The position numbers and the translations under genes are program-made. DNA of 64,000 nt from Pempheris klunzingeri. Taxonomy: Eukaryota; Chordata; Actinopteri; Acropomatiformes; Pempheridae. Where the stretch lies: positions 8,460,328 to 8,524,327 of the forward strand of contig NC_092019.1 in the NCBI RefSeq assembly GCF_042242105.1, in the 5' to 3' direction. The notes under the pieces were generated by a model. It had not been told where the DNA came from. It searched no databases and was given only the letters and a program-made list of their open reading frames with translations. The first letter of the stretch is position 1. Each line of letters starts with the position of its first letter. Positions 18,176 to 21,263 of the stretch are shown here, piece after piece.

Positions 18176-21100
18176 CAGGCAGGCAGGCAGGCAGGCAGGC
18201 AGGCAGGCAGGCAGGCAGGCAGGCAGGCAGGCAGGCAGGCAGGCAGGCAGGCAGGCAGGCAGGCAGGCAGGCAGGCAGGCAGGCAGGCAGGCAGGCAGGC
18301 AGGCAGGCAGGCAGGCAGGCAGGCAGGCAGGCAGGCAGGCAGGCAGGCAGGCAGGCAGGCAGGCAGGCAGGCAGGCAGGCAGGCAGGCAGGCAGGCAGGC
18401 AGGCAGGCAGGCAGGCAGGCAGGCAGGCAGGCAGGCAGGCAGGCAGGCAGGCAGGCAGGCAGGCAGGCAGGCAGGCAGGCAGGCAGGCAGGCAGGCAGGC
18501 AGGCAGGCAGGCAGGCAGGCAGGCAGGCAGGCAGGCAGGCAGGCAGGCAGGCAGGCAGGCAGGCAGGCAGGCAGGCAGGCAGGCAGGCAGGCAGGCAGGC
18601 AGGCAGGCAGGCAGGCAGGCAGGCAGGCAGGCAGGCAGGCAGGCAGGCAGGCAGGCAGGCAGGCAGGCAGGCAGGCAGGCAGGCAGGCAGGCAGGCAGGC
18701 AGGCAGGCAGGCAGGCAGGCAGGCAGGCAGGCAGGCAGGCAGGCAGGCAGGCAGGCAGGCAGGCAGGCAGGCAGGCAGGCAGGCAGGCAGGCAGGCAGGC
18801 AGGCAGGCAGGCAGGCAGGCAGGCAGGCAGGCAGGCAGGCAGGCAGGCAGGCAGGCAGGCAGGCAGGCAGGCAGGCAGGCAGGCAGGCAGGCAGGCAGGC
18901 AGGCAGGCAGGCAGGCAGGCAGGCAGGCAGGCAGGCAGGCAGGCAGGCAGGCAGGCAGGCAGGCAGGCAGGCAGGCAGGCAGGCAGGCAGGCAGGCAGGC
19001 AGGCAGGCAGGCAGGCAGGCAGGCAGGCAGGCAGGCAGGCAGGCAGGCAGGCAGGCAGGCAGGCAGGCAGGCAGGCAGGCAGGCAGGCAGGCAGGCAGGC
19101 AGGCAGGCAGGCAGGCAGGCAGGCAGGCAGGCAGGCAGGCAGGCAGGCAGGCAGGCAGGCAGGCAGGCAGGCAGGCAGGCAGGCAGGCAGGCAGGCAGGC
19201 AGGCAGGCAGGCAGGCAGGCAGGCAGGCAGGCAGGCAGGCAGGCAGGCAGGCAGGCAGGCAGGCAGGCAGGCAGGCAGGCAGGCAGGCAGGCAGGCAGGC
19301 AGGCAGGCAGGCAGGCAGGCAGGCAGGCAGGCAGGCAGGCAGGCAGGCAGGCAGGCAGGCAGGCAGGCAGGCAGGCAGGCAGGCAGGCAGGCAGGCAGGC
19401 AGGCAGGCAGGCAGGCAGGCAGGCAGGCAGGCAGGCAGGCAGGCAGGCAGGCAGGCAGGCAGGCAGGCAGGCAGGCAGGCAGGCAGGCAGGCAGGCAGGC
19501 AGGCAGGCAGGCAGGCAGGCAGGCAGGCAGGCAGGCAGGCAGGCAGGCAGGCAGGCAGGCAGGCAGGCAGGCAGGCAGGCAGGCAGGCAGGCAGGCAGGC
19601 AGGCAGGCAGGCAGGCAGGCAGGCAGGCAGGCAGGCAGGCAGGCAGGCAGGCAGGCAGGCAGGCAGGCAGGCAGGCAGGCAGGCAGGCAGGCAGGCAGGC
19701 AGGCAGGCAGGCAGGCAGGCAGGCAGGCAGGCAGGCAGGCAGGCAGGCAGGCAGGCAGGCAGGCAGGCAGGCAGGCAGGCAGGCAGGCAGGCAGGCAGGC
19801 AGGCAGGCAGGCAGGCAGGCAGGCAGGCAGGCAGGCAGGCAGGCAGGCAGGCAGGCAGGCAGGCAGGCAGGCAGGCAGGCAGGCAGGCAGGCAGGCAGGC
19901 AGGCAGGCAGGCAGGCAGGCAGGCAGGCAGGCAGGCAGGCAGGCAGGCAGGCAGGCAGGCAGGCAGGCAGGCAGGCAGGCAGGCAGGCAGGCAGGCAGGC
20001 AGGCAGGCAGGCAGGCAGGCAGGCAGGCAGGCAGGCAGGCAGGCAGGCAGGCAGGCAGGCAGGCAGGCAGGCAGGCAGGCAGGCAGGCAGGCAGGCAGGC
20101 AGGCAGGCAGGCAGGCAGGCAGGCAGGCAGGCAGGCAGGCAGGCAGGCAGGCAGGCAGGCAGGCAGGCAGGCAGGCAGGCAGGCAGGCAGGCAGGCAGGC
20201 AGGCAGGCAGGCAGGCAGGCAGGCAGGCAGGCAGGCAGGCAGGCAGGCAGGCAGGCAGGCAGGCAGGCAGGCAGGCAGGCAGGCAGGCAGGCAGGCAGGC
20301 AGGCAGGCAGGCAGGCAGGCAGGCAGGCAGGCAGGCAGGCAGGCAGGCAGGCAGGCAGGCAGGCAGGCAGGCAGGCAGGCAGGCAGGCAGGCAGGCAGGC
20401 AGGCAGGCAGGCAGGCAGGCAGGCAGGCAGGCAGGCAGGCAGGCAGGCAGGCAGGCAGGCAGGCAGGCAGGCAGGCAGGCAGGCAGGCAGGCAGGCAGGC
20501 AGGCAGGCAGGCAGGCAGGCAGGCAGGCAGGCAGGCAGGCAGGCAGGCAGGCAGGCAGGCAGGCAGGCAGGCAGGCAGGCAGGCAGGCAGGCAGGCAGGC
20601 AGGCAGGCAGGCAGGCAGGCAGGCAGGCAGGCAGGCAGGCAGGCAGGCAGGCAGGCAGGCAGGCAGGCAGGCAGGCAGGCAGGCAGGCAGGCAGGCAGGC
20701 AGGCAGGCAGGCAGGCAGGCAGGCAGGCAGGCAGGCAGGCAGGCAGGCAGGCAGGCAGGCAGGCAGGCAGGCAGGCAGGCAGGCAGGCAGGCAGGCAGGC
20801 AGGCAGGCAGGCAGGCAGGCAGGCAGGCAGGCAGGCAGGCAGGCAGGCAGGCAGGCAGGCAGGCAGGCAGGCAGGCAGGCAGGCAGGCAGGCAGGCAGGC
20901 AGGCAGGCAGGCAGGCAGGCAGGCAGGCAGGCAGGCAGGCAGGCAGGCAGGCAGGCAGGCAGGCAGGCAGGCAGGCAGGCAGGCAGGCAGGCAGGCAGGC
21001 AGGCAGGCAGGCAGGCAGGCAGGCAGGCAGGCAGGCAGGCAGGCAGGCAGGCAGGCAGGCAGGCAGGCAGGCAGGCAGGCAGGCAGGCAGGCAGGCAGGC

Positions 21101-21263
21101 AGGCAGGCAGGCAGGCAGGCAGGCAGGCAGGCAGGCAGGCAGGCAGGCAGGCAGGCAGGCAGGCAGGCAGGCAGGCAGGCAGGCAGGCAGGCAGGCAGGC
21201 AGGCAGGCAGGCAGGCAGGCAGGCAGGCAGGCAGGCAGGCAGGCAGGCAGGCAGGCAGGCAGG
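18176..21263. repeat. giant pure tetranucleotide array, (CAGG)772
   Basis: There are 3088 bases of CAGG repeated 772 times, with no substitution or indel seen in any unit. The left flank is a degenerate CAGA/GACA zone (18139-18175). The right flank breaks sharply to GGGTTGCC after 21263. Because four and three share no factor, the array has no stop codon in any of six frames. The plus strand reads as Gln-Ala-Gly-Arg repeats and the minus strand as Leu-Pro-Ala-Cys repeats, which explains four apparent ORFs of over 1000 residues. These are not genes. The array sits in putative intron 1 of zhx2, so a zhx2 pre-mRNA would carry CAGG and an antisense RNA CCUG. The unit number depends on long-read assembly and may vary between individuals. 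Confidence 0.98.

Follow-up and report, generated by a model that had tools for sequence, protein, structure and literature searches.

A perfect tandem array of 772 CAGG units stands upstream of the coding region of a zhx2-like gene in the 64-kb stretch of DNA analyzed here, hereafter the window (C8:8460328-8524327; the assembly comprises 645.9 Mb in 439 contigs). We judge it likely that the array is a real and fairly recent expansion like those of the expanded simple tandem repeats (ESTRs), which grew from a CAGA/CAGG seed in the probable first intron of this gene and is tolerated as part of a spliced-out intron.

The CAGG array and its assembly context

The features at the array are as follows.

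18129-21278, + strand: ATG-started open frame through the array (repeated QAGR); it reflects the lack of stops in the repeats and is not a gene
18135-18175, + strand: degenerate CAGA/CAGG-like left flank, a possible seed, with two perfect CAGA units immediately before the array (from the sequence)
18176-21263, + strand (CCTG on the - strand): perfect (CAGG)772 tandem array (exact run measurement; TRF)

The initial annotation had counted 772 uninterrupted CAGG units, and the exact run bears this out: the maximal perfect period-4 run of the assembled sequence covers 3,088 bp with no mismatch, indel or N. TRF returned a longer span (18168-21263, 774 copies, 99%) because two CAGA units adjoin the array on its left. 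This is the sole CAGG run of at least three units in the 64-kb window, which holds no CCTG run of at least three units, and the random-occurrence probability for the given run is negligible (~10^-1804). The degenerate left flank that had also been described is present (CAGTCAGACAGACAGCGAGACAACAGGCAACTACAGACAGACAGG at 18135-18179), and the right edge of the array is abrupt. All six frames through the array are open over 1,053-1,079 codons; large ORFs across it were rejected as genes, since stop-free units open every frame.

Genome-wide, (CAGG)8 matched at 915 forward and 78 reverse positions, 765 of which are the 772-unit array by arithmetic, and (CAGG)20 at 761 forward and no reverse positions, 753 of which are again this array. 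Five of the eight remaining (CAGG)20 positions fit an array with 24 full units on contig C32. The (CAGG)20 counts, taken with the C32 array, indicate that no other CAGG array exceeds 24 units, so that the next longest in the assembly is about thirty times shorter than the one described here. The array is thus real in the assembly and extreme for its unit.

We then considered 11 other CAGG loci, picked from the genome match lists among the matches listed. CAGA/ACAG-type arrays of at least 5 units lie near CAGG in the fetched stretches of five loci (L003, L004, L009, L010 and L012), and no CAGA array was found near CAGG in the other six at a 20-bp threshold. The five positive loci fit growth of CAGG out of CAGA. 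On C17, L010:1239-1403 reads (AC)15(CCTG)15(CTGT)20, with dinucleotide, CCTG and TCTG-type arrays adjoining; human CNBP has the same types of neighbor, but in a different order and with TG where this strand has AC.

As a control, (CAGA)50 was searched genome-wide and matched at 676 forward and 79 reverse positions. Five of the forward matches lie on C5, and the remaining 671 are accounted for, by arithmetic, by a second giant array on C7 (C7:24545857-24548738), where (CA)21 is followed by a perfect, uninterrupted (ACAG)720.5 tract of 2,882 bp; the 79 reverse matches correspond to at most 128 units if they form one array. On either side of the C7 array lies an open frame, one of 161 aa and the other of 152 aa. 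The other motifs searched besides CAGG and CAGA were GATA, GATG, GGAA and AC, and further motifs may well form giant arrays too: (GATA)50 matched at 27 positions in 6 places, none longer than 56 units; (GATG)50 and (GGAA)50 had no genome-wide match; and (AC)99 matched at 423 forward and 524 reverse positions, with 4 places among the matches listed. Long and perfect TG arrays also occur within the window, at 52197-52312 (58 units) and 60779-60858 (40 units). Kilobase-sized arrays were found for CAGG and CAGA alone among the five tetranucleotides tested.

The C7 and C8 arrays are both pure kilobase CAGN arrays in a common assembly, whereas the former has a CAGA unit and retains its CA tract. The C8 array is therefore extreme but not alone in this genome, and the presence of a second pure kilobase array on C7 indicates that the expansion process ran at least twice. 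With two such arrays, the tendency to expand may be a property of CAGN units or of this genome rather than of the zhx2 locus.

The main open risk for the array is the assembly itself. If this were an assembly or polishing artefact, the actual array would be of another length, shorter or longer, or would carry interruptions, and its consensus would have been made uniform; over-polishing would indeed give perfect purity, and the similar lengths of the two arrays (3,088 and 2,882 bp) may reflect an assembly limit. We nevertheless consider an artefact unlikely. There is no N in the window, and the flanks of the array (326 and 437 bp) each match only themselves in a search of the assembly, on a 28.9-Mb contig, so that neither a scaffold gap nor a second copy is visible. 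Interrupted CAGG runs at C14 and C32, where the shorter arrays (L009 and L012) keep their interruptions, argue that the assembly does not erase variants everywhere, and the usual assembly error is collapse, not invention. Should the array prove to be an artefact after all, it would be a useful warning for long-read assemblies. The self-only matching of the flanks also led us to reject a mobile-element or duplicated origin, although a common element could have escaped the search, which passes over simple repeats and highly frequent words.

The zhx2-like gene and the position of the array

The putative first exon upstream of the array and the coding exons downstream of it are listed below.

7751-9250, no strand assigned: most pronounced CpG island in the window, a candidate zhx2 promoter with exon 1 (composition)
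8336-8349, + strand: putative exon-1 splice donor in the island, GGGCAG/GTAAGAAA, exon end at 8341 (donor consensus match by eye)
25944-26042, + strand: first coding exon of the zhx2-like gene (translation MSSRRKASTPCM...; donor GAG/GTAAAG)
26733-27452, + strand: second coding exon, ZHX-type C2H2 finger region (PF18387, E 2.3e-18; splice sites)
27712-27924, + strand: coding exon that probably encodes the first homeodomain region (in-phase ag/gt junctions)
28634-28897, + strand: coding exon (in-phase ag/gt junctions)
29111-29598, + strand: two coding exons (29111-29326 and 29514-29598), homeodomain nearest ZHX2 3nau (PDB 3nau_A, E 8.8e-13; junctions)
29894-30079, + strand: coding exon, with further coding-like ORFs downstream to ~33.3 kb

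In the protein joined from these exons (559 aa from 26739), Pfam identified the ZHX C2H2 finger PF18387 at E 2.3e-18 and Homeodomain at E 1.1e-15 in two stretches, with coordinates given for the best stretch only. Compared with solved structures, the homeodomain is closest to ZHX2 3nau (8.8e-13), with ZHX1 2ly9 close at 3.1e-11; for the finger region the match is ZHX1 2ghf (2.7e-32), and no ZHX2 finger chain is among the 9 PDB matches. Membership of the host gene in the ZHX family is supported by these matches, and zhx2 is its likely name.

The genome contains five ZHX finger loci, and the nearest of the four others, C16:1516490, has 52% identity over 488 aligned positions. Its paralogous sequence falls within an open frame of 1,043 codons, and the coding region on C8 is split over at least seven exons (25944-30079). 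No CAGG run was detected beside three of the other ZHX loci (two on C16 and one on C11, the C2 locus being left out) in 12 stretches, L025-L036, at thresholds of 24 bp in eight stretches and 20 bp in four; an expansion common to ZHX paralogues was rejected for these three screened loci. One of the C16 stretches beside a ZHX locus, L026, carries 10.5 units of GACA in one run, together with a perfect (CAG)35 at 6879-6983, the latter upstream of the locus and ~6.6 kb from its start codon match. Elsewhere in the window, an ORF at 62560-62955 (- strand) matches Ribosomal_L32p at 21.9 bits against a curated cut-off of 21.3 and is perhaps a mitochondrial ribosomal protein gene, and an ORF at 47270-47629 (+ strand) has a weak, possibly chance match to AdoMet_dc (21 bits against a curated cut-off of 25).

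The initial annotation had placed the array in a putative first intron of zhx2. A ZHX-type gene does lie downstream, with its first coding exon at 25944, and a CpG island with a splice donor lies upstream, from which we infer that the array is probably in intron 1 of the zhx2-like gene. The five 500-bp windows of the island at 7751-9250 have a GC content of 0.52-0.56 and a CpG observed/expected ratio of 0.74-1.03, compared with 0.34 for the whole window, and exon 1 is a prediction from this composition and one splice consensus. Human ZHX2 has upstream non-coding exons. The array would make up about 17.5% of the putative 17.6-kb intron.

Alternatively, the array could lie upstream of the gene, with the zhx2 promoter located downstream of 21263 or with the 8-kb island belonging to another transcript. 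In its favor, no upstream exon is confirmed via homology. However, none of the 25 CpG-richest 500-bp windows falls within 21.3-25.9 kb, the 8-kb island contains a donor in the sense orientation, and no Pfam family was found at E 0.01 in the five ORFs searched at 8.0-22.5 kb (out of 104 of at least 60 aa ending before 26.1 kb). We therefore regard a position outside the gene as unlikely and continue with the array as a probable part of intron 1.

Comparison with human DM2 and mouse Hm-2

The expansion in human DM2 is a (CCTG)n tract in intron 1 of CNBP, in which expanded alleles of about 75 to over 11,000 units lose their interruptions and TCTG (= CAGA) units adjoin, as described in PMC3378579 and PMC9462847. 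The C8 array resembles it in its duplex unit, its uninterrupted state, its CAGA neighbors and, putatively here, its place in an intron 1, and its 772 uninterrupted units lie well above the lower figure of 75. In contrast, the nearest downstream gene is ZHX-type and not CNBP, the strand is the opposite one, no (TG)n tract directly adjoins the array in its flank sequence, and the array is not known to cause disease. It is not a DM2 homologue: the two are alike in unit and purity but not in gene or strand. The description of the locus as a natural analogue of DM2 is thus right about the unit, the purity and the size of the array and is overstated because gene and strand differ; moreover, the Hm-2 (GGCA)n array of mice has the same unit.

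As had been predicted, the host transcript would carry CAGG, with CCUG only on an antisense RNA, the zhx2-like gene and CAGG both being on the + strand. MBNL preferentially binds YGCY motifs, of which the array holds none in the sense and 771 in the antisense orientation. In ViennaRNA predictions, the folding energies per 60 nt of RNA are -21.5 kcal/mol for CAGG, -9.6 kcal/mol for CCUG and -25.1 kcal/mol for CUG. The sense frame with an ATG at 18129 would encode polyQAGR, and in flies the median life was reported as 6 days with polyQAGR, 27 days with polyLPAC and 41.5 days in controls (PMC13225714); by analogy, polyQAGR from the sense strand would be toxic if made. Since CAGG RNA is predicted to fold better than CCUG and polyQAGR is toxic in flies, the sense RNA need not be inert, and protection, if any, must then come from splicing of the intron and decay. 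In a yeast intron, sense (CAGG)100 was reported to raise the spliced transcript 3.8-fold above a no-repeat intron, and (CCTG)100 to lower it 2.6-fold (PMC10849350). The earlier proposal that strand explains tolerance accordingly agrees with the yeast intron data and is at odds with the fly data, in which the sense peptide is the more toxic one. We consider tolerance probable, as the array would be separated by kilobases from its closest exons within a long intron and would be transcribed as CAGG and not CCUG; the array presumably has no function.

These observations also bear on a DM2-like functional allele, in which the array would, in the sequenced animal, alter zhx2 splicing or expression or give rise to toxic RNA or RAN peptides. 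Its unit and size class are those of DM2, the six frames are open, including the ATG-started polyQAGR frame, and the antisense strand is rich in YGCY motifs; but the complete lack of such motifs in the sense strand and the unblocked splicing of intronic sense CAGG in yeast both speak against pathogenic action, and we consider this very unlikely. A tolerated intronic array remains the reading that we favor.

Mouse Hm-2 alleles reach thousands of units. The Hm-2 unit, (GGCA)n (PMC3585117), is a rotation of CAGG, so that both arrays have the same unit, and the 772 perfect units on C8 likewise form a long, homogeneous kilobase array of a short unit, as is typical of ESTRs. In control mice, length changes were reported for 0.0427 (maternal) and 0.0549 (paternal) of Hm-2 bands, or ~4-5% (PMC3419097). 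Hm-2 thus combines this array class with frequent germline mutation in standard laboratory mice, and germline instability of the C8 array may be expected by analogy. The two differ in species and locus, and Hm-2 is listed as having arisen from a MaLR LTR (PMC9659126), whereas the flanks of the C8 array found no other copy. By this comparison Hm-2 is a closer precedent for the C8 array than DM2, and through it unstable CAGG arrays have a precedent in an ordinary vertebrate. The new elements would be the place in a probable intron outside rodents and a second giant (CAGA) array. Among the literature matches listed (titles and abstract openings, most subscription papers being outside reach), there was nothing on point about long natural CAGG arrays, nor about repeats in zhx2 introns, the word zhx2 being absent from the titles and abstract openings listed.

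Growth, age and significance of the array

A short CAGA/CAGG seed may first have lost its variants; replication slippage or break repair out of register would then have lengthened it into the uninterrupted (CAGG)772, with purity kept by length turnover. The neighboring CAGA units and the CAGA/ACAG arrays at other loci are fitting for a CAGG array that would have grown out of CAGA. In human DM2, CAGA (TCTG) blocks often accompany the CCTG expansion, as reported for 88% of a cohort of 100 (PMC13195993). Yeast with CAGG/CCTG repeats shows raised fragility and massive repeat contractions, and the explanation proposed by the authors for the contractions is out-of-register break repair; fragility significantly exceeded the control with (CCTG)100 and (CAGG)138 but not with (CAGG)100 (PMC10849350). 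Predicted DNA folding per 60 nt is weak for CAGG (-7.2 kcal/mol, compared with -19.8 kcal/mol for a CTG control) and absent for CAGA, although published probing does find stable CAGG hairpins (PMC10849350). As modeled, DNA hairpins do not explain both giant arrays, and we rejected them as a sufficient driver because CAGA is predicted to be unfolded yet reaches 720 units.

The purity of the array had been read as a sign of recent or continuing expansion. With zero substitutions in 3,088 bp, homogenization would be recent for an intron: the last bulk event falls within ~97,000 generations (95% bound) at an assumed rate of 1e-8 per site and generation, or within 49,000-194,000 generations for rates of 2e-8 to 5e-9. 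Recency thus stands, to about 10^5 generations at the assumed 1e-8; continuing expansion is not shown by purity.

At a broader level, we can suggest with low confidence that some trans-acting factor in this lineage favors germline growth of CAGN tetranucleotides (CAGG and CAGA) to kilobase size and that such arrays are tolerated in genes; the lineage would then offer a natural model, outside rodents, of disease-free DM2-type expansion. The work cited here on DM2-type repeats was carried out in patients, yeast and flies. A vertebrate with a pure 772-unit CAGG tract, probably genic, and a 720-unit CAGA tract would allow germline and somatic instability, repair dependence and strand effects to be measured without an engineered construct, and the array would show that kilobase purity alone is no sign of disease.
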